A stretch of 64,000 nucleotides of DNA from positions 231,001-295,000 of the forward strand of contig CAMXCT020001413.1 of assembly GCA_947184155.2 (NCBI GenBank), read 5' to 3'. The translations under genes were made by a program, and so were the position numbers. Below, piece by piece: positions 1,036 to 44,604 of the stretch (its first letter is position 1; each line of letters begins with the position of its first letter). This DNA comes from Cladocopium goreaui. Its lineage: Eukaryota; Sar; Dinophyceae; Suessiales; Symbiodiniaceae. The notes under the pieces were generated by a model that worked only from the letters and a program-made list of their open reading frames with translations, did not search any database and was not told the origin of the DNA.

Positions 1036-1045
1036 TTTTTTTTTT
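1036..1045 (-). other. Poly(A) tail of retrotransposon
   Basis: Ten consecutive T on the plus strand are an A run at the 3' end of the minus-strand element. They mark the junction between GC-rich element DNA and the AT-richer intron of PEX11. Confidence 0.7.
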
Positions 1046-1124
1046 CCCCTGCTGCATGACCCACTCTGCGTCTCACGCGCCAATGGACTTTGCCATTGGG
1101 GGAGGCTATGTACAGCCACAGCGG

Positions 1125-4100
1125 TCACCGCGGGAGGCGACTATCCGGTGGGCGTTCATGCCACCGGACGTCAGCCAGGGTCGCGGCGAACGGCGGGGGC
1201 TCCCCATCGACGCCGGGTGCGGCCGCGGCCGGGAGTTCGAGGAGAGTCTCGGCCAGGGCGCGCTGCGCCGCGACGGATAGGAGGCCGGCCCAACGGTGCA
1301 CGTAGGCCTGAACTGCCGCCGAGCGGAGGAGTGCTGGCGCAGTGCGGGCGCGGGCGTGCGCCAAGGCTCGGAGGAAGTCGGCGGCTTCCTCGCCCCAACG
1401 ACCTCCTACTTCGAGACCTAAGATGAGTAGGTGGCAGCGGCGCGAGCCGGAAAACTCGGGGTAGGTGTGTTCCCGCTTGCGCTGGGAGGCTGCCAGGATC
1501 GCCGCGCCCGGGTTCGCGTCGGAACCGTGGCGCACCTGTCCGGTGCGGCCAAGGGGGCTGACGAGGGTCACGTCGACTGCCAGCTGAGCCCCGTGCCAGA
1601 GCGGCAAGTCGTTTGCGAGGACTTCGATCTGGCGTGCGTCGGTGACCGGGACCGCGAGGTTCATGCGCGAGAGCGGCACGTTGACCGCGACGCGGGCACC
1701 GGCCTCGCGGCAGATGCGGGCGACCGCGCGTTCGATGGGCGCAGCTCGTGCCCGGAGGACGCCAGTGGTGGCGCATGCGGCACGGTGGTCGCCGTAAGGG
1801 TCGAGTGCCAAGCCACACCGACACCGGGAAGGGCCGCAGCTCAAGGGGGCTCGGAGCCGCCGTTGCAGCAAGGTGCGGAAAAGCGGGTTGCCGAGCTGGA
1901 ATTCCGGGCTGGTAGGAAGGGTTGTGACTGCGCGGCCGCTGTGTGGGCCAGCCTGGGATAGGAGAAGCGCGCGCTCCGGAGGGGAAAGGTCAGATAGGAG
2001 CGCTGCGAGCTCGTCCAAGTCTTGGGCTGCACTGATGTCGCGCTGCCACCCCCGCAGGAAATCGCCCGGGGTCCGGTCTTCGTGCGAGAAGGTATGGCGG
2101 CCGCCGATGATAGATTCCCAGGGTGGGACAGTCGCCCCGCTGTTCCGGAGGAGATGGGCTGCCTGGGAGGCGGCGAGGATGCTGGGTGGTTGTGGGCGGG
2201 CCTCGCCGCTGAGGAGCTGGAGAAGGCGGTCCGCCACAAGAGGAAGGCGCGCGTGGAGGATGGGCAAGGTGTCGGCCCATGAGGCCCAATACGCGGCGAG
2301 GCGCGAACGGTGGGCCGAGCGCAGGCCGCACCCCCCCAAGCGCAATGGGAGTTGGGCCCGGCGTAGCTGCAGGTCCGAAAGGGCCGCGCCTGCCGCCACC
2401 AGGGTGCTGACGCAATGTGCCACCGCGGCGTCGTGGGCGGCTGCAAAGTCTGAGGTGTCCGCCGGTGGGAGGACGCGGAGGAAATAGTTGCTCCGGGGGG
2501 CTGCGCAGAAAAGGAGCAACAGCCAGGCGGCCTGCAGGTTCTCTACCCATGGGATGCGGTGGAGAAGGAGGTCTTGTTTGGTGCGGACCTCGGTAAGAGC
2601 ATGTTGCACGTATTGCGCGCTCCCAATGGGGGTGCCCAGGACCTGGAGGCCTTGCGCCGAAGGGGGCAGAGTCCAGTCGCCGACCCAAACCCGGTCGTTG
2701 CTGTCAGCTGGCTGCAGCTCTGGGAGGTGGCACGGCTCTTCCCCAGCCGCATTCCAGATTCGGGTCTTACCTTGGTTGAGTTCGATGCACGCGTGGCCTC
2801 GGAGGGAAACGCGCAAGGTGGAATAGAGCGCGTGGGTGCGGTCAGGCGACGAAATGACATAGATGTCATCGAGGAAAGCAAAGAGCGCTTCCCCGGACCG
2901 CATCGTGGCCGCGGTCTCTTGCAGCGCAGGGTGCTGGGCAAGCGCAAACAGGGCAGGCATGAGCGGGTCGCCTTGCTTCCCCCCTTCAGCTTGCTGAACG
3001 GAGTGGCAGGCGCCACTAGAGTCCCACCAGAGGTAGGTGCTGTCTTGGCCGTAGAAGAGGCGGGCGTAGGGGAGGAGGGGTCGAAGCGCAGGGGAGCGGA
3101 GAAGGCTGCCGAGCATCGACTGGCGTCCGACATGATCGAAAGCGCCGACGCCGTCGACCGACAGCACGGTAGCGCGGGGGTCGAGCTCGGTCGCGACCCG
3201 GACGGCGCGTGCGAGGTCTTCTGCTCCGGCTTTGGTGCTGAGGGCGTACTGAAAGGGGTGGCACGCCTCTTGGAACTGGGCTGAGAATTGCTGCGCCAAG
3301 GTCCGGCCGACCAGCCGGCGGAACACGTCGCTCATCACGAGGCCGCGCACACGCCCGTTGCCTTTCTGGAGGGCAACAAGGCGGCCGACTCGGAGGCCGT
3401 CCATAATGAGGGGAGGCACCCGCGCCGAGGCCAGGAGCGAGGCCGCGTCGCACAGGAGGCGGGAGTCGGATTCAGACTCGAGCAAGACCCGCAGGTGCTC
3501 ATTGGTGCAGCCAGACGGACCAGCGGCCGCCCCGCGGCGGGCCCGGCGGAGGTTTTGCAGGAATCTGGTGGCATCGACGTGGAGCAGCTCATCGGGCTGG
3601 AAAGAGGCAACGTCGTCCGAGAGGGGTCGATGCCGGACTTGCGGGCGCCGGGACGGGTTGCGCAGCTCGGCCAGCGTGGCGGACGAGAGCGGCGCGAGGG
3701 GCTCGGCCACTAGCGACCGGGCAGCCGCGGAAAGTTCCCCTTGATGTGCCAGGCTGGCTGCACGGGAAGCACGCGCGTCAGCAGAGGGGACGCTCGAGGA
3801 CGGCGCTGTGGGGTGGAAGCTGCTGGCAGCTTCGCCGAGCAGCTGGTGCCACTGGCCGTTCCGGAACATAGTGGCTCGGCGGTCGAGGTCGCTGGGTTCG
3901 GCGCGCTCCCCGGGACGGGACCGGTAGCAGAGCATCCGCGGGGCCAGGAGGAAGAGCTTCCAGCCACGTGCTTGGGCAGGGTCCGTGTCGGCGGGGTGGT
4001 CGCAGATTTCGGTGAGGCCCAGGCGGAGCGCAAAGGCAAGGACCCCCTGCAAGCGCCGGGGCGCACCTTGGAACGTCGAGACCCGCACCCGCAAGGTGTG

Positions 4101-5351
4101 GGCGAGGTCGAGGTCGTCAAGGCTGCGGAGCGCTTGTTGGAGCCGAGCTGCGGGGTTTGGAGAGGGCGAAGGCGGGGGAGGCGGAGGGTCTGGGACCTCG
4201 GCAGGTTCTGCGGGAGCAGGGTCCGCCGCGGCTGCGTGTCGTCCACGCCCGCGGCCGCGACCGCCGCGGCGCGGCGGGGGGCGGTGGGCACGGGCCACCT
4301 GTTGGGCCAGAGCCCGGACAGTGGCCAGCTCTCTGGGCGCCGAAGTCTCGACCGCGGGATGCACGGGGCCGGGATCGGCAGGGAACTGGATGGGCGCCGG
4401 AGGGTCCGGGCGCGCTCGGAAGGTGTCCGAGTGCCGGTCGAGGTCGGCAGCAAGGTGAAGGCCACCATAGAGTTGGAGAAGCACTTCTTGGCCAGCGGCG
4501 GGGACGTACGCGTCGGGGTCGCAGAGGTGGCGAACTGCCCAGCCCAGATGCGCTTGGGCACCTGGCGGGAGCGCGGCCGCCTGTCGGGAAAGGCGCTGGT
4601 GCGAGGGAAGCGCGCCAGCAGCTGGGCAAGCGTGGAGGGCTTCCAGGAGGGTGGTGAGGGGGACGGGGGGCGCGGCAGTCAGCGCTTGCCGGGCGCGCTC
4701 CCACCACCGTGTGGTGGCGGTGGCTTGTTGCCAGGCCAAGGCGGCATCCTCGTGGAGCTCGCCTGTCGCGGCGAGGAGCAGGGGCACATACAGCCAGGAG
4801 TTGGCATCCGTCCGGACAATGCCACTTGGGGGGCCGCGCTGGCGCCAGGCGGCCACGCCCCTGGGGCGGGGAGAAGGGGGCGGCGTGGCGCGCTCGGGCT
4901 CGGATTCTTGGAAGGGGTTGAAGTGGAGCCCGTGGCAAGTGCTGCTCAAGCTGGCATCGAGCGCTGGGTCCCAGGCATGACGGCACAGAGGACATCGTGG
5001 AGGGTGCACTTGCGCGCGGGATCTGGCGAGGCAGGCGAAATGGTAGGCATGCCGGCAGCCGGGCCAATGCACGACCGCCCGGCGCCCCACCCCGGAAGGG
5101 AGTAGGGGCTCGAGGCAGGTGCAACATGTGGGCGCGGCATGGGCGCCATCGGTAGGAGCGGTGGGGGGAGGTGCGTCCTCGCCGTCACTGAGGACGACGG
5201 GGGCGGGTGAGACATCCGGGAGGGTGGACCCAGCTGCCGTGGTGGCGCTAGGGTGAAACGCTTGAACCAAAACGACTTCGTCACCGTCACCATTGTGTGT
5301 ATTTTCGGCCCGTGCCTCCTCCCGATCACAGTGCGGCCAAGGCGCCGCCAT
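1125..5351 (-). CDS. Retrotransposon protein: RING-H2, reverse transcriptase, REL-like nuclease
   Basis: This uninterrupted ORF of 1,408 codons starts at the first ATG (5351); a stop lies 12 codons upstream. Residues 76-123 form a complete RING-H2 finger: C-x2-C, then CRHAYHFAC (C-x-H-x2-H-x2-C), then CPLC. Residues 160-400 are Ala/Pro-rich with a GRGRGRGRH stretch. The reverse transcriptase spans about 600-880: GPSGCTNEHL, motif A VLSVDGVGAFD, motif B KQGDPLMPALFALA, and motif C FLDDIYV (catalytic DD). Near residue 1172 is a Cys/His knuckle ending CRCGLALDPYGDHRAAC. It is followed by QLAVDVTLVSP and KREHTYPEF, which resemble the PD-(D/E)XK nuclease of R2-like elements. Known in the family: RT copies the transcript onto a nicked target. 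Inference: the RING finger may recruit host ubiquitin machinery or act as a nucleic-acid-binding knuckle. Most other long frames at 1.1-5.4 kb are shadows of this ORF. Confidence 0.9.
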   Translation of the reverse strand: MAAPWPHCDREEARAENTHNGDGDEVVLVQAFHPSATTAAGSTLPDVSPAPVVLSDGEDAPPPTAPTDGAHAAPTCCTCLEPLLPSGVGRRAVVHWPGCRHAYHFACLARSRAQVHPPRCPLCRHAWDPALDASLSSTCHGLHFNPFQESEPERATPPPSPRPRGVAAWRQRGPPSGIVRTDANSWLYVPLLLAATGELHEDAALAWQQATATTRWWERARQALTAAPPVPLTTLLEALHACPAAGALPSHQRLSRQAAALPPGAQAHLGWAVRHLCDPDAYVPAAGQEVLLQLYGGLHLAADLDRHSDTFRARPDPPAPIQFPADPGPVHPAVETSAPRELATVRALAQQVARAHRPPPRRGGRGRGRGRHAAAADPAPAEPAEVPDPPPPPPSPSPNPAARLQQALRSLDDLDLAHTLRVRVSTFQGAPRRLQGVLAFALRLGLTEICDHPADTDPAQARGWKLFLLAPRMLCYRSRPGERAEPSDLDRRATMFRNGQWHQLLGEAASSFHPTAPSSSVPSADARASRAASLAHQGELSAAARSLVAEPLAPLSSATLAELRNPSRRPQVRHRPLSDDVASFQPDELLHVDATRFLQNLRRARRGAAAGPSGCTNEHLRVLLESESDSRLLCDAASLLASARVPPLIMDGLRVGRLVALQKGNGRVRGLVMSDVFRRLVGRTLAQQFSAQFQEACHPFQYALSTKAGAEDLARAVRVATELDPRATVLSVDGVGAFDHVGRQSMLGSLLRSPALRPLLPYARLFYGQDSTYLWWDSSGACHSVQQAEGGKQGDPLMPALFALAQHPALQETAATMRSGEALFAFLDDIYVISSPDRTHALYSTLRVSLRGHACIELNQGKTRIWNAAGEEPCHLPELQPADSNDRVWVGDWTLPPSAQGLQVLGTPIGSAQYVQHALTEVRTKQDLLLHRIPWVENLQAAWLLLLFCAAPRSNYFLRVLPPADTSDFAAAHDAAVAHCVSTLVAAGAALSDLQLRRAQLPLRLGGCGLRSAHRSRLAAYWASWADTLPILHARLPLVADRLLQLLSGEARPQPPSILAASQAAHLLRNSGATVPPWESIIGGRHTFSHEDRTPGDFLRGWQRDISAAQDLDELAALLSDLSPPERALLLSQAGPHSGRAVTTLPTSPEFQLGNPLFRTLLQRRLRAPLSCGPSRCRCGLALDPYGDHRAACATTGVLRARAAPIERAVARICREAGARVAVNVPLSRMNLAVPVTDARQIEVLANDLPLWHGAQLAVDVTLVSPLGRTGQVRHGSDANPGAAILAASQRKREHTYPEFSGSRRCHLLILGLEVGGRWGEEAADFLRALAHARARTAPALLRSAAVQAYVHRWAGLLSVAAQRALAETLLELPAAAAPGVDGEPPPFAATLADVRWHERPPDSRLPR

Positions 5352-6340
5352 GAGCAGCGGCCAAGCGGTCTCTCGCAAGCAGCTATGGCGTCAGGCTCGC
5401 CCGGTCTGCTGTCTGCTGTATGTTAGTTTTTTTTTTTTGTTTTTGGGTCTGTGGCGAAACCTCGGTTTTCCTTTGTTGTTGTGATTTTTTCCTTTTTTTT
5501 TTTTCTCCTTTTCCCAGGGGTACCGGTGGTGAGAGATGTGGGTGGAGTGAAAGGTGCGTCCGGCTGCTCAAAGGGCCTGGGAGTTGCCGCGCTGCCTTGA
5601 AAGGATGGCGCGCAGCAGAGGTGGGGGCGGGGAAGGAGGTGGCGGGGGGTGGCGGAGTGCCGGCCGCCGGGGGGTGGCGTGGGGTGCCTGCTGCCTTGAA
5701 AAGCGGAGGGCGCAGGCGGAGCCGACCGGGTCAGCGGAACGGGGAAGGCCCCGTCCGGGCAAAAGGGTTGGCGGAGATTGGGATGGGCCCGGGTGCCGTG
5801 AAGGCAGTGACCGGTGGGCTGGAAGTCCTGCGAGGAGGAAGGCCCTGGCTTGCGCGGACGGCGCGCCCGGCACGGTGGCTACGGCGCGTGGGCCGACGGC
5901 CGGGTGCTTGGGGAAGGCGAGGCGCGGGTGGGGGGCCACGCGCCGCAGGGCGCGCCGGCGGGCGGTGCGCCGGTGGAGGAAGAGGAGGCTCGGGCTCCAC
6001 CGGGATCTCCTCGAACTCCGCCGCAGCCGAGGGCGAAGAGGGCGAAGGAGAGCTCTCGGGAGGGGGCGCCCGGCGCGGGCAGAGGCGAGCACGGGGGGGC
6101 GACCCCTGGGAGGAAGAGCCACTCCCCCGAGAGCGGGAGCGGGAGGGGGAAGGGGGGCGACGGGCAGGGGGTGGAGGCGCCGCCGGGGCGGCTGCCGGGG
6201 CCCCGGGGGGGGCAGGTGCCGCCAAAGCGACCTGCCCTCCCAGCCGGAGCCAGGTGCCACGGACGGGCGACCTCGACCCCCTGGAGGGTGAGGATCGCCG
6301 GTTCCATGAAGGGGCCGGGGGCGCGCCGGCGCGTTCGAGC
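5352..6340 (-). other. GC-rich leader of retrotransposon with Pro/Arg/Ser-rich open frame
   Basis: On the minus strand one frame is open from the SL-like site (about 6345) to 5731 with no ATG. It encodes Pro/Ala/Arg/Ser-rich sequence including PSPSRSRSRGSGSSSQGS and EFEEIPVEPEPPLPPP. A different frame has an ATG at 6307. This could be a 5' ORF (ORF1) that lost its start, a structured untranslated leader, or a frame kept open only by high GC. A T-rich tract (5425-5510 on plus) separates it from the main ORF. Confidence 0.4.
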
Positions 6341-6350
6341 CTTGAGCCAA
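6341..6350 (-). other. Relict of spliced-leader 3' end
   Basis: The minus strand reads TTGGCTCAAG, identical to the last ten bases of the dinoflagellate spliced leader. It falls exactly where GC-rich element sequence begins. Upstream is AAAAAA rather than the rest of the leader. Dinoflagellate genomes are known to hold SL relicts left when trans-spliced mRNAs are reverse-transcribed. Confidence 0.5.
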
Positions 6351-6715
6351 TTTTTTTTGGTTCAGGGCAACCAACTTGGCTAAAATGAGTTGGTTTGCAG
6401 CTGGTAGGGTCAGCAAGTCTTTCACCCTAGATTGAGCAGAGCGACCAGCTTACATGAGACTAGTGACTAGTTGAGAACTTCAAGAAGAAAACATGTAGTG
6501 AAAACTCAAAAATGATCGTGAACTGGCTCGCATTATACAGCTAACAACTAGAAATGTGGCAAACCCAATTCTAAACCCCAATTTGAATCATAATTTGACC
6601 ATAAATAAATATCCAGCAAAATGGTGTTCTATATTTTCACCATCCCCCAAAAAATGGTAGTTCTTTCTCACCATAAAGGGTGAATCTCACCATTTTTTTC
6701 GCTGCCAGTGGCTGC

Positions 6716-17975: not shown

Positions 17976-20061
17976 CCACTCCCCATGGTAGGATGATCCA
18001 TCCGCCAAATAGTGAGCTCCATAGCCTTGGCCGAGCATCACCTGCTGGTGAGTTGTGGCTGCTGTTGGGCTGTTGGCTGTGCCTGAAAAAACCCTGTGAC
18101 ACCTCCCTTGCACCCAAAACGCTATGCACACCACTTGACATTCTGTGAGAATCCCATCTGGATCAACCACTTTCCTGCATGTCCGTGCCGTGCTGGATAC
18201 TGAGGAATCAAACCATGAAAGCGGTTTCCACGCCATTGGCCCAAGTAGACCTTGGAACTCCCACGGGTTTCCTCCTTGATGTCACCCAGTCACCTCAGGG
18301 CCTTGCAGATCCATCAGGGAACTTGAATCGACCATACCTCAGGTGCTGCCATTGCGCGGCCGGCGATGCAGCACGGCCAATCGACAAGAAATAGGAGATC
18401 TGAGATGGAGACCCAGAAGCTGAGCTATTGGACCTTCCCAATTTTCCAGTGGCCGGTAGCAAAATCATAGTTAACAGCATCAAGAATGAGCTGCCCTCCA
18501 AAATTCAATGGTTCATCATCACTTTGCCTATCAAATTTGCTACCAATTGGAATGCTATATATATATACATATAACAACACACATATATGATACAATTGCA
18601 CATAAAACTACAAACAACGTAATAGGAATATATACATGTATACATTTATCATTTATGTACATATGTGCATGTATACATACAGTATGTATATATATATACA
18701 TACACATGTTCAATGTGTGTATATCTTATCTTAGGCAAAGCCCACCAGACACCAAGGAGGTGTGAGCTTCCAACCAGCAACCCTCATACTGGGCTCCATC
18801 TGGCCTAAGGAGGGCATCACAGGCTGTCATTCAAAATCAATAGTTGGGAAGGGTATAGCTAATCTATGTACCATCTAGATGCAGTCCATTTGTCTTGGGC
18901 AAATCATCTTGTATCTTAAATATCTATAAATATTTGTAGTATACATGTATATATATATATGTGTGTGTGTGTAACATCTGGATAGATGTAAAACTTCCTT
19001 CTTCTTTTTTCTTCCCTCTTCTCCCTTTTTAAATAATGCAGGGGGACACAGCATTTCACTGGGACTGTGTCCGACGAAGCTACCAGTGAAATGGGATATC
19101 CAGCTTGGCCAGCTGGACGTACCTGCATTTTTCGTTGCAATTTTGACTGACATGGCACGCGGCCAAGCCTAGAACCGCACAGCTGTATTTTCACTTCACG
19201 GTTGTCGCAATCTGGTACTTAATTTCTGTTATCAACATGGCGATCCTTATTTTTTGGATCTGCACGTTACAGGATGCAGTTCCTGCCGGATCATATAATG
19301 ATCCATTCTTATCTAGTGTGATTCCTATGGTGACTCCGACATGGTGCCATAGGGCCAATTGAGGCAACCCTGTTTGGGGTGAGTGTCGACTGACTTGAAT
19401 TCCGGATTTACACATTTTAATCTGGTAATTCGCCTAAGTAAAGTGCAACAGTTGGCCTTACCGTTGTGCACCTTTTCACAAAGTCTCGCCGATCCGGCTG
19501 TCCCAGGGTTCCTCGCCAACGCAGCTCTTCAACTTTGCAGCCGTGCCGAACATCCAGAAACCTCCTTTTTTCGCAGCAGCTTTTACAGTCACATTACAAG
19601 AGACAGAACGCAGGCAGGTACACGATCTTTAGGTGTGGTCTTCTTTCTTTTGATGGTTCTCTGGTGAGGTGAAACATATTGTGCACCTAATTCGCTGGAA
19701 CTTGAAAGCCGTTTATGCCAATTGGGGCAAGACTTGACCACGGTCCCGGCAAGGGAATAACGCACGACATCTAGGTAGTTAGGAACTGAATCCTGTCTTT
19801 AATTAATTGTTTTGGTTTTCTTGTCTGTCATCAACTAGTCCCCCATTTGGTCCCTAATTTTCCCCGCGTGCCTCTCCGTAATGTGTCGTGGGGTTTAAGT
19901 GTGTGCGCTGTTTTGGTCAGGTCCGTTTCGCCGTGTAGGTTGGTTCCGGAGGGTCCGTCGTTCTGTGTCCCCTCCCCCCTCTGTGTGTTTTTGGCCGTTT
20001 GCTCGTCGTGTGTCCGCTTTTTTCTTCCTCTTGCCTTTCAGGGTTTTCCCGGCTCTGCCGG

Positions 20062-20092
<31 letters not shown>

Positions 20093-21573
20093 TGGGTGTG
20101 TGGTGTGGGTGGGTGTGGTGTGGTGGGTGGTGGTGTGTTTGTGTGGTGGTGGTGTGTGCGTGTGGTTGGTGTGTGGTTGGTGGGGTGGTGTGTGGTGTGG
20201 TGGTTGGTGTGTGGTGGTGTGTGGTTGGTGTGTGGTTGGTGTGTGGTTTCCTGGTGTGGTGGTGTGTGGTTGGTGTGTGGTTGGTGTGTGGTTGGTGTGT
20301 GGTTGGTGTGTGGTTGGTGTGTGGTTGGTGTGTGGTTGTGTGTGTGGTTGGTGTGTGGTTGGTGTGTGGTTGGTGTGTGGTTGGTGTGTGGTTGGTGTGT
20401 GGTTGGTGTGTGGTTGGTGTGTGGTTGTGTGTGGTTGGTGTGTGGTTGGTGTGTGTGTGTGGTTGGTGTGTGGTTGGTGTGTGTGTGTGGTTGGTGTGTG
20501 GTTGGTGTGTGGTTGGTGTGTGGTTGGTGTGTGGTTGGTGTGTGGTTGGTGTGTGGTTGGTGTGTGGTTGGTGTGTGGTTGGTGTGTGTGTGTAACATCT
20601 GGATAGATGTAAAACTTCCTTCTTCTTTTTTCTTCCCTCTTCTCCCTTTTTAAATAATGCAGGGGGACACAGCATTTCACTGGGACTGTGTCCAACGAAG
20701 CTACCAGCGAAATGGGATATCCAGCTTGGCCAGCTGGACGTACCTGCATTTTTCGTTGCAATTTTGACTGACATGGCACGCGGCCAAGCCTAGAACCGCA
20801 CAGCTGCATTTTCACTTCACGGTTGTCGCAATCTGGTACTTAATTTCTGTTATCAACATGGCGATCCTTATTTTTTGGATCTGCACGTTACAGGATTCAG
20901 TTCCTGCCGGATCATATAATGATCCATTCTTATCTAGTGTGTGTACCTCTTCTTATATTATTTATTTGTCTTGTCTGTCTGTCTATCTCTACCTAACAAA
21001 CCACCCGTCCCTAACTCTCTCTACCAAATTCTTTCTATCTCGTTCTTTCTCTTTCTTTCTCTACCTATCTCTATATCTACGTATATAATATATATATATA
21101 CCTATCCATATCTACATCTATCTCGATATCTATCTCTATATCTATCTTTGTATCTACCTCTCTATCTATCTGCATATCTATCTCCATATCAATATCTGCT
21201 TCAATTTCTATATCTCTCTATCATTCTCTATGTCTATATCTATCTCTATATCTCTCTCGATCTCTACCTATCGATAGATCCTATCGATAGATCTATCGCT
21301 TTATCGATCTATCGATCTATATACCTGTCTGTCTATTCCTTTACTTATCTGTTCATTCACTTACATCCATATCTACATTTAAATCTAGATCATGTCTGTG
21401 TCTCGACATATCCTCAACTTCGTGAAGCTGGGCACCTCAGCTTCAGACCAGGTCTGGCGTCCAAATCCGTGGCGCTGATTGCCACACCATTGGCCAACAT
21501 AAATGGCCCCCGAATGGAAGCGATGCGGCGGTCGGGGCCCCAGGCCTGCCCAGCCCGGGATTTCACCAGTCAA
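17976..21573 (-). CDS. MORN-repeat protein, dispersed exons
   Basis: Three minus-strand exons carry MORN units. At 21,400-21,573: FHSGAIYVGQWCGNQRHGFG. At about 18,305-18,345: YGRFKFPDGSA. At 17976-18041 (exact, 22 codons): GQGYGAHYLADGSSYHGEW, with a CAG acceptor and GTGTGC donor. Spacing of MORN elements implies missing exons between them. The gene starts just downstream of the DUF1764 gene (stop at 21750). A 1.6-kb repeat block (18,973-20,941) expands the intron. MORN proteins are membrane-associated scaffolds; the rest of this one, and hence its specific role, is not visible. Confidence 0.55.
18973..19320. repeat. 348-bp direct repeat, copy 1
   Basis: From AACATCTGGATAG to ATCTAGTGTG, this segment recurs at 20594-20941 with four mismatches by eye. 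Both copies directly follow a (GT)n run. The copies do not start TG and end CA, so they are not ordinary LTRs. Confidence 0.9.
20064..20593. repeat. GT-rich minisatellite (unit about TGTGTGGTTGG)
   Basis: About 530 bp of tandem 11-bp units with variants, all G and T on the plus strand. The long frames of THTNHTP or VVGVWLVC repeats here are translation of this satellite, not genes. Strand asymmetry is extreme: no A or C for long stretches. Confidence 0.95.
20594..20941. repeat. 348-bp direct repeat, copy 2
   Basis: Near-identical to 18973-19320. It directly follows the GT minisatellite. The two copies bracket 1.27 kb that has no ORF of note. Confidence 0.9.
20942..21384. repeat. Degenerate (TCTA)n microsatellite
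   Basis: About 440 bp of TCTA/TCTC/TCTG tetranucleotides with a perfect short palindrome cluster (CTATCGATAGATCCTATCGATAG, 21,267-21,290). It encodes no gene. Confidence 0.85.
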
Positions 21574-41854: not shown

Positions 41855-44465
41855 CGGGTCTAGGGCCACTAGACGTTGGTACGCCGAAGCTGCTGCCTCA
41901 TCTTGATTGGCAAAGCGCAGCAGAGCCACTAAATTCCGCCAGTAGAGGATGCTGTCACCGCTCAAAGAAACTGCCTGTTGTAGCTGCTGAATCCCAGGCA
42001 CAATCATCTGCTGAGGTAACTTTCCCAGGACAGCACCCAGACCTAAAGCACAGCCCAGGTTGTTCAGACCCTTCGTGAAGGTCCCATTGATGGCCAGACT
42101 CTTTTCAAAGTTGGTAATGGCATCCATTGGTTTCTCGGCAAACCAAAGTGCTAAGCCGTAGTCGTGAAAGACCTCCTCCTCGTTCACCAGAAGTGGGCTG
42201 AAGTGTCCCTCTACTGCTTTCGCCAGAAGTTCTTCGGCGGCCGTCTTGTTTCCTCGGTAGATCTGGATTTGTCCTGCATGATACAGCGGCATGCAGTCCC
42301 TGCCAGTAGGATCCAGGGCCATCACAGTTTCAAAGGTGGATAGAGCTTCGTCATAGCCTGGCTAGCGAATACGACCTTCACAAGATATTATATAGTCATC
42401 CAAACCGCTGTCATCATCAACATTCATCAACCATCCCATGTTTGGAGGAACACACACACACACACATATTAGTTATATATATATGTGTATTATATATATA
42501 TATATGTATTATATATATATGTATTATATATATATGTATGTATTATATATATGTATTATATATATATGTATTATATATATATATGTGCGTGTGTGTGTGT
42601 GCGTGTGCGTGTTCAAAGAAAAACCAAAACATATTAATTGAAAAAAAACTGAAAGCACCATCTAAATCTAAATCCAACCAGCAGGCGCTTGTTGGACATG
42701 TGGTGTGTAGCCAAGTTATACTGAACTCGCGTGGAACGTTTCTGCTTCATGGCATCCGCCACCGTAATCGTCTCAGGACTGGACCAGTCGGGCACGCGCT
42801 GAGCGGTGAGAGCCGCGAACATGAGGCCTACAGCCAGGAGGAATGCCAGCGAACCTGGGTGACTGGCTGTTGAACCATCTGAAAAATATTGAGTTTGAAA
42901 TTATAGAAATATATGAGCTTCCGTCAAGATCCTTTACATCTCAGTACAAGTAGTTGCTATTATTGGTTATCGCTTTTTGGGGGGGCATATCACTTTACAG
43001 TGTTTCGTGCACATCTCTGGCAAAAACTCCTGCAATACTAAAGTGGTCTTCAACCATTTTGATCTTGACCCATATACAGTATATTGTTGGAAATGATTGG
43101 AAATGTGAAAGTCATGGGAGATCGACATCCCATTTTCATGGAGGAAATACTCGGAAAACTAAACAAAACTGACAACTACATAGGCCAGGAACTGGCTCGT
43201 GGTGGAGCAAGACCAAGGACGGTGATCAACAAGCCGGCAGAAGGGATGTACAGCAAGCGTTCTCCAATCATGGTCCCCACGGGGAAGAGGATATTGGACA
43301 TGGGCAAAAAGCTCAGGATCAAGATGGCCATACCAACAATTGGCAGTTCCCTGCGTCTCTGAGCCAGGCCCGATGACAATGTTATCAGAGCAAAGAAGCC
43401 CAGGTAGCAGCCAATAGGCAATAGCAGCCGGCAATCGGAGAGGCTCCGCACCAAGGGCACTGCGTCAAAGGAATAGTCATAGCACAGAAAGTTTGGCCAA
43501 ACCAAAAGTTTGCCATAGATGCCATGCACCAAAGCATAGGAAAGAATCCTCACGAGCTGGTCCTTCTCAGCTGCCACCGGATTACTGAAAGGATCCATCC
43601 TTTCGATGGTGGTCCCAGTGTACCAGAACCGGAGGCCGCAGCACAGCGTGCCGAGAAGCAGCAGAAGCAGCATCCTCATCCACAGACGCATGTTGGAAGG
43701 CTGCCAGGTGAGCCATAAGATATCCCAACCCACCAGCAGACCAAAGAAACAGAAGCCGGTCTCCTTGCACAGCCCAGCTGCAATCAAAAGGACGCAGGAA
43801 ACCACGGCAGCCAGGAAGGCCCCGAAATTTCTAGGAGGCGAGGCCCTCAAATGAACCAAACAACTCAGCAGGATAAAGCTCAAAGAAATCAGATCCGCCC
43901 GGCCCACGATGTACAACACGCTCTCTGTATGCACTGGATGGGCCAGGAAGAGTCCACCCAACCATGCAGACCACCAGCCCGAGAAACCGCAGTGAGCAGC
44001 AAAGACAGCAAGCAGAATGGAGCAAATGCCGTGAAGGATCAGGTTCGCAATGTGAAAGCCAGATGACTCAAAGCCATGCAACAAGAAGTTCCAGCGAAAG
44101 GTCAAAACCGTGAAAGGCCGAAAGGATTTGTGCGTCCAAGTGCCTGCAAACATGTCCAAGCCCCAATAATCTGATCGAAGCAGCTGGGACCAGCTGAAAT
44201 CTCCCACCACATTGGGATTTCGGGCAATCATGGCATCATCCATGAAGAAACCATTGTTGAAGATCTTATACTGCCAAGCCGGAAGCCAGGCACAAACCGC
44301 CAACACAATCAGGGCAGAAGCTCCCAGGCGCAATAAGGCACCTGATTTTGGCTCAGGAGCTCGAAGGTGGAAGTGGTCCTGTGGTAGATTCTTGGGACCC
44401 CAAAGGTGTGGAGCTGATGTGTGATCTCCGAAACCCTTGAGTAAACAGGGACATACAGGGACCAT
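41855..44465 (-). CDS. TMTC-type transmembrane and TPR protein (O-mannosyltransferase family)
   Basis: Exon 1 (43214-44465) starts MVPVCPCLLKGF and encodes 417 residues. It has about eight hydrophobic segments and the family motifs GFFMDDAMIARNPNV, HKSFRPFTVLTFRWN, FHIANLILHG and LAHPVHTESVLYIVGRADL. Exon 2 (42675-42854) has a last membrane helix and the first TPR helix (STRVQYNLATHHM). Exon 3 (42357 down to about 41,855) has TPR units, for example YDEALSTFETVMALDP, VFHDYGLALWF, KGLNNLGCALG and YQRLVALDP. Joins CTTG|GTCTTG and GTTG|GATTTA (a GA donor) keep frame. TMTC proteins in the ER membrane transfer mannose from dolichol-phosphate-mannose to Ser/Thr of client proteins; the paired acidic DD in the first lumenal loop is the catalytic feature of this GT-C fold. 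The 3' end was not found; more TPR exons probably follow below 41.8 kb. Confidence 0.85.
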
Positions 44466-44604
44466 TTTCCACCTTGCAGTTTAATCATACCACCCCCAAG
44501 GGTACGTGCGTCGCAAGCAAAAATGAAAAAATGAAGAGAAAATTGGTTATCCCCAAGTCCAATCGTGTATCAGTTTCCTATTGAAGGCCTATTTTGTCAG
44601 CATA

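Follow-up and report, generated by a model that had tools for sequence, protein, structure and literature searches.

Elements of the R2 type carry a single open reading frame (ORF) that encodes N-terminal zinc fingers, a reverse transcriptase (RT), a C-terminal zinc motif and an endonuclease; elements of the CRE, SLACS and CZAR kind are known for their insertion into spliced-leader (SL) genes in trypanosomes. The dinoflagellate leader (DinoSL) reads DCCGUAGCCAUUUUGGCUCAAG, and the long interspersed nuclear elements (LINEs) of the Symbiodiniaceae have been reported as remnants of an ancient expansion (PMC8045281). A 2018 review gave the type of retroelement behind dinoflagellate retrogenes as unknown and favoured Ty1/copia elements with long terminal repeats (LTRs; PMC6050394), and LINEs have been inferred for viral inserts, some of which bear a relict dinoSL (PMC10235124). 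Here, we analyse a stretch of 64,000 nucleotides from Cladocopium goreaui (GenBank assembly GCA_947184155.2, contig CAMXCT020001413.1, positions 231,001 to 295,000), referred to as the window. It contains a retrotransposon whose protein carries a RING-H2 finger ahead of the RT and most of whose copies start, in the sense orientation, with the 3′ part of the SL. We regard it as a young copy of an autonomous dinoflagellate LINE with an R2-like RT, which would move as a trans-spliced mRNA and whose RING would act as an E3 ubiquitin ligase; to this explanation as a whole we give a probability of roughly 0.6. The fusion of RING and RT had been pointed out in an earlier note made from the letters of the window; the SL-derived 5′ ends, which are absent from that note, are the strongest mechanistic evidence.

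An intact element with dispersed copies

The minus strand of the window holds an intact ORF (P0001; 5351 to 1125, stop included) that spans 1,408 codons with zero internal stops, just as the earlier note had described it. The interval given there (1125..5351) fits the ORF and falls short of the whole element, since the mobile unit spans 6350–1036. Copies were searched for in the genome from which the window comes (G000; 1.17 Gb, 6202 contigs) and aligned. On the 5′ side, 13 loci with upstream DNA start to align at window positions 6339–6351 (L002 lies at a contig end, and L006 and L008 start further inside, at 5225 and 5469, respectively), and on the 3′ side the alignments of all ten loci that extend that far end at 1035–1048. 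Beyond these ends the flanks differ between copies, except for two 5′ flanks that are each common to two copies. One such pair, L003 and L004, has an identical 5′ flank with almost no leader, and differing 3′ flanks; this may reflect a duplication with a breakpoint, a transduced 5′ sequence or an assembly fault.

An A-run of 7 to 11 was present at all 11 of the 3′ junctions inspected in the window family, and all three diverged families that were looked at have such a run at the 3′ end, of A12, A10 and A9, respectively. Neither end of the element matches the other in the copy comparison (rows longer than 60 nt), and there are no LTRs. The 3′ flanks of 11 copies look mutually unrelated by eye, so that no specific target site is seen and insertion is not site-specific as it is for R2 in ribosomal DNA. 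Target-site duplications were sought in seven copies (L007 was dropped, as its flank is too short). Only C3190, with an A+T-rich duplication of 15 nt, exceeded the cross-control maximum of 10; that no consistent duplication emerged weighs against the proposed explanation as a whole. R2-type elements often have no target-site duplication.

Six near-full copies of the ORF, the window's own included, are present at 98–100% identity, together with broken copies at 89–99% and diverged relatives at 51–56%. Three further families (C1017, C5950 and C2409) are represented by separate single ORFs with the same domain order, their proteins being 39–44% identical to the window protein in a four-family alignment; at a fourth diverged locus, C3921, the RING stands in a different frame. 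The ratio of nonsynonymous to synonymous differences (pN/pS) is 0.22–0.32 in all five comparisons with L005, the more diverged copy, and 0.26–1.04 in the ten remaining pairs, with few changes each. Outside this genome, no relatives were found in viral contigs (queries P0001 and A1) or in a collection of genome contigs (query A1). A host RING gene lying beside or fused to a dead RT fragment, whether by chance fusion or by domestication, would also present a single intact intronless ORF, and one copy alone would look so. The copies are dispersed, however, mostly 95–100% identical and bounded by common ends, and the domain order recurs in the separate families C1017, C5950 and C2409; a host gene is scarcely credible in the light of these observations. 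It was on the strength of the dispersal of the copies and their shared ends that domestication was rejected.

The RT, which the earlier note had called complete with QGDPL and LDD, contains both motifs and matches RVT_1 in Pfam (residues 663–870, E = 1.8e-9). Its best matches in the PDB are R2 retrotransposon chains (E = 4.2e-6 for the window RT alone and 2.5e-14 with a four-family profile); other solved RTs matched the profile at E = 0.00093 (retron-type RT) and 0.0023 (LINE-1 ORF2). R2 is therefore the closest RT among solved structures, an affiliation of this non-LTR retrotransposon that is drawn from these structures and not from a tree. Towards the C-terminus, the four residues of a zinc motif (C1177, C1179, H1189 and C1193) and four acidic residues (E1207, D1238, D1260 and E1314) are invariant in the four families, and the Lys of the PD-(D/E)XK triad has no single fixed alignment column. 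The region of residues 1202–1330 gave no match in Pfam or PDB searches. By motif and order, as in R2-type elements, the C-terminus is putatively of the restriction-like-endonuclease type.

A RING-H2 finger and its possible role

The pattern C-x2-C-x19-C-x-H-x2-H-x2-C-x12-C-x2-C occupies residues 76–123 with all eight ligands present, as the earlier note had it. When compared with RING families, as that note had proposed, the window copy remained below the curated Pfam cut-offs (zf-RING_Vps41, E = 6e-5; zf-RING_2, E = 0.0015, 19.2 bits versus a cut-off of 27.3; zf-rbx1, E = 0.0049), and two of six relatives reached that for zf-RING_2 (L072 at 27.3 and L067 at 29.4 bits; the other four at 18.2 to 26.8). 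A profile of the four families matched RING E3 ubiquitin ligases (EL5, Arkadia and HRD1) and the RING of MEKK1 in the PDB (E = 4e-4 to 9e-3). All eight ligands are invariant columns of the four-family alignment, as are W96, P97, R124 and W127; since the ligands are kept in four families, three of them only 39–44% identical to the window protein, the RING is not a chance pattern.

Further sampling gave the same picture. From 117 matches to an N-terminal query, 20 further places were picked for covering the RING, and 18 of these have all eight ligands; L054 and L065, with one His-to-Gln change each, are the only exceptions. Relatives lacking the Cys/His ligands, which had been named beforehand as an observation that would speak against the finger, are thus in the minority. 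An RT query taken from the C2409 family gave 32 loci whose matches extend to its N-terminal side (rows with query start ≤64; C459 was left unexamined), and 27 of the 32, eight of them from the window's own family, bear the RING or its remains. It was read at 26 of these loci and is complete at 24, C1180 having one Gln and C1182:128206 being decayed; at C1888, counted among the 27, it is indicated by the alignment only. In some copies (among them C3921, C5860 and C679) RING and RT lie in different frames. A separate scoring of RT candidates covered 150 of 4498.

In C5950 and C2409 (L071 and L072) an additional Cys/His-rich segment (of the CHRCNT ... CPHHG type) lies between the RING and SWLYVPLL, and the alignment shows the window family without it. 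In the C1017 family (L048/L070) the segment GEAAHPGPP stands 20–25 residues N-terminal of the RING; it resembles a 2A-like peptide, with HPGP in place of NPGP.

In RING E3s the residue right after Cys8 is the linchpin position and the residue before Cys2 an E2 contact, and many E3s have Ile, Leu or Val at the latter. RING sequences from 70 partly overlapping loci were grouped at 80% identity into 18 clusters, each with one representative, using a pattern anchored on WP-x-C (a RING without WP-x-C would escape it). Arg directly follows Cys8 in 18 of the 18 clusters and Trp is found at Cys8+4 in 17; the residue before Cys2 is Ile or Val in 13 clusters and Thr in five. A linchpin Arg stabilises the closed E2–ubiquitin conjugate in RING E3s (PMC12326332), and its presence in every cluster favours a working E3 over a passive zinc clamp. 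Judged from these conserved residues, the RING probably works as an E3 ligase. It would recruit a host E2–ubiquitin conjugate and ubiquitylate a protein met by the ribonucleoprotein, which at a guess could be a restriction or chromatin factor of the host, or the element's protein itself. The earlier note had offered recruitment of ubiquitin machinery and a nucleic-acid clamp side by side; the Arg in 18 of 18 clusters and the Ile or Val in 13 of 18 favour the former and make the latter less likely.

Several observations weigh against this reading. Thr precedes Cys2 in the window copy as well as in the five cluster representatives, L085 (C1108), which lies outside the 18-cluster set, has Cys in the linchpin position, and no RING was found in the stretch inspected at four of the 32 RT loci (C458, C981, C1982 and C14), where there may be 5′ truncation or a real absence. 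The finger might instead be a zinc module that is structural, serves dimerisation or binds nucleic acid, without a ubiquitin role, replacing the N-terminal fingers of R2-type proteins, whose place it occupies. Such a module would be consistent with Pfam scores near or below the RING cut-offs, with basic residues after Cys6 (CLARxRA) and with the second Cys/His-rich segment behind the RING in C5950 and C2409; a pure zinc clamp, however, would need neither the Arg after Cys8 nor the Ile or Val before Cys2, and we think this reading less likely. That the RING is a decaying passenger without present function is suggested by the ligands lost in L054 and L065 and by the decayed L087, but such losses affect only a minority of copies, four families about 40% identical overall agree in every ligand, and there are full-length copies with intact ORFs and the low pN/pS in the five L005 pairs noted above. 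Decay is most unlikely on this evidence, and a working E3 remains the reading that we prefer.

Spliced-leader sequence at the 5′ ends

The 5′ end of the window copy is TTGGCTCAAG and that of L007 is GCCATTTTGGCTCAAG, and L005 starts with the leader twice in tandem. Among 12 distinct 5′ flanks, eight have an exact leader suffix of 9–17 nt that stops 4 or 6 nt short of the anchor; a random position in the window reaches 9 nt with P = 5.5e-4 each (the null positions come from the whole window, including the element). This count omits L002, whose contig begins inside the element, and L006 and L008, for which the alignment begins further inside; the pairs L003/L004 and L011/L016, each with a common flank, enter it as one flank apiece. 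Ten diverged loci (L040–L049) have sequence upstream of the element, and six of these, which belong to two families, also bear leader relicts, with up to three exact 15-nt leader units plus mutated ones in L044 and L045. C5950 has one leader relict 505 nt before the ATG and C2409 has none.

In the genome as a whole, the exact 30-nt double relict occurs at 29 places, corresponding to 27 sites (control 0). Six of these sites (C498, C1017, C2011, C2083, C4867 and C4889; three families) lie 0.6–1.3 kb upstream of N-terminal RING–RT matches on the same strand. The exact full 21-nt DinoSL was found at 172 places (0 for the reversed control), presumably including SL genes, which marks the host as a dinoflagellate; among the 100 of these that were listed, C338 and C1180 lie 1.1 and 1.3 kb, respectively, upstream of N-terminal RING–RT matches, again on the same strand.

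Where leader sequence is present, it ends at CAAG and varies in length, with the same body after it and different DNA before it, which is explained most simply if the copied RNA was trans-spliced. We consider it very likely that this was so, that cDNA synthesis starting at the A-tail often broke off within the leader and that an AG of the relict or within the leader can be used again. In the scheme that we propose, the element would be transcribed, often by read-through from outside, and the host would add DinoSL to it by trans-splicing, with the closing AG of an old relict or the leader-internal AG (CCGTAG/CC) as acceptor. Use of the relict's own AG would restore the same start and use of the internal AG would add a 15-nt unit, leaving single or tandem relicts with a 15-nt pitch. 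The capped, polyadenylated mRNA would then be translated and bound by its own protein, and target-primed reverse transcription at a nick would copy it, often stopping within the leader.

Not every 5′ end conforms to this scheme. Only 1 to 5 nt of leader remain in four of the 12 flanks (L003/L004, L009, L012 and L014), and no clean SL was found 5′ of L040, L041, L042, L046 and L072, the 5′ side of L040 having a single leader hit with three mismatches; these loci speak against it. Targeted insertion into SL genes, in the manner of CRE, SLACS and CZAR, would likewise place the leader, ending at its 3′ CAAG, at the same element position. It is at odds with the 12 distinct 5′ flanks, in which the SL fragment ranges from 1 to 17 nt, with 3′ flanks that are mutually unrelated by eye, with tandem relicts that restart at the leader-internal AG as expected from repeated splicing, and with an APE-type LINE of the same 5′ structure (see below), and is highly improbable. 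It was rejected on the evidence of the flanks, and trans-splicing of the copied RNA is retained.

Nine of the 21 remaining tandem sites were read (L074–L082). At L074 (G000:C3514:17500-21060, minus strand) a tandem DinoSL relict starts an APE-type LINE, in which a 332-codon ORF is followed by an ORF with Exo_endo_phos and RVT_1; SL-derived 5′ ends are therefore not confined to RING elements. Another SL-tagged family is represented by L076, L079, L080 and L081, which have in common a hydrophobic ORF right after the tandem leader, and L075, L077, L078 and L082 are tandem-leader sites without an assigned element.

Features of the window and comparison with known systems

The features of the element are collected in Table 1. 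Pfam scans of the window protein and its relatives gave zero matches in the conserved region of residues 185–301. The stem of the hairpin in the 3′ untranslated region is perfect over 7 bp, and the 93 nt from the stop codon past the A-run have a minimum free energy of −34.4 kcal/mol (calculated without a shuffled control). Just before the A-tail, L071 and L072, whose families are about half identical, have the stretch TGCGGT(C)AAAAAGGxGCG in common, which is perhaps an RT recognition element.

Table 1. Coordinates of the retrotransposon and its parts in the window.
Feature	Positions	Strand	Basis
Whole retrotransposon copy, ~5.3 kb, SL relict to A-tail	1036..6350	minus	copy alignment
DinoSL relict TTGGCTCAAG (3′-terminal 10 nt of the leader)	6341..6350	minus	exact SL suffix in 5′ flank
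5′ untranslated region, G+C-rich, ~1 kb	5352..6340	minus	between SL relict and ATG
Single ORF P0001, 1,408 codons plus stop	1125..5351	minus	ORF translation, pN/pS
RING-H2 finger, residues 76–123	4983..5126	minus	ligand pattern, Pfam, family alignment, profile
R124 (linchpin position) and W127, directly after RING	4971-4982	minus	
Conserved region SWLYVPLL ... QExLLQ, residues 185–301	4449..4799	minus	kept in four families
Reverse transcriptase, residues 594–870, with QGDPL and LDD	2742..3572	minus	RVT_1, R2 chains
C-terminal zinc motif C-x-C-x9-H-x3-C, residues 1177–1193	1773..1823	minus	invariant in four families
Putative restriction-like endonuclease region, residues 1202–1330	1362..1748	minus	motif level only
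3′ untranslated region, 79 nt	1046..1124	minus	holds hairpin CCAATGG-N6-CCATTGG at window 1080-1099
A10 tail	1036..1045	minus	A-runs at 3′ junctions of copies

Elsewhere in the window, an ORF on the minus strand (43176-44480) matches TMTC_DUF1736 (protein O-mannosyl-transferase TMTC; E = 1.3e-15). A repetitive T/G-rich stretch at 19790-20839, with long ORFs in either direction that encode runs of Cys-Gly-Trp-Val and of Thr-His-Gln-Pro, looks like a simple repeat rather than genes.

Near-identical, intact copies contrast with the view of Symbiodiniaceae LINEs as ancient remnants (PMC8045281). The SL-derived 5′ ends suggest how a LINE that has no fixed promoter can draw on the RNA processing of its host to renew its 5′ end, and tandem leaders may serve as a count of copying rounds. 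Young LINEs with an SL start and an A-run end make the LINE alternative for the formation of retrogenes testable, and an RT element with a selected ubiquitin-ligase-type domain would, if true, offer a direct handle on the dealings between element and host. A more speculative extension, which we think doubtful, is that a LINE lineage encodes its own E3 ligase for use on host proteins during retrotransposition, and that SL-tagged LINEs (RING and APE-type) make the thousands of DinoSL retrogenes, tandem leaders recording the rounds. Among the literature matches listed, as far as their texts were available, none describes a RING–RT fusion or a LINE with DinoSL 5′ ends of its own; Repbase-type databases and most subscription papers and preprints lie outside this scope.

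The element resembles those of the R2 type in its one ORF with an N-terminal zinc module, RT, C-terminal zinc motif and putative endonuclease-type end. It differs from them in that a RING-H2 takes the place of their zinc fingers, that 11 3′ flanks, compared by eye, show no insertion site in common, and that it has an A-tail and an SL-derived 5′ end. SymbioLINE-Dnmt of Symbiodinium (PMC5890265) is likewise a dinoflagellate LINE with an acquired regulatory domain under purifying selection, but has two ORFs and a DNA methyltransferase in ORF1, in contrast to the RING and single ORF of the window element; 'ring', 'spliced leader' and 'splice leader' have 0 word-start occurrences in the main text of that paper. 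Trypanosomatid LINEs with the Pr77 promoter are also LINEs in a host that trans-splices its mRNA, but their 5′ sequence activates transcription and yields unspliced, translatable transcripts, whereas here the leader forms the 5′ end (PMC8190864). DinoSL-tagged retrogenes, too, are RNA-derived copies whose 5′ ends bear relict and tandem DinoSL; the tagged units described there are host genes, whereas the unit tagged here is an RT-encoding LINE (PMC6050394, PMC12014239).

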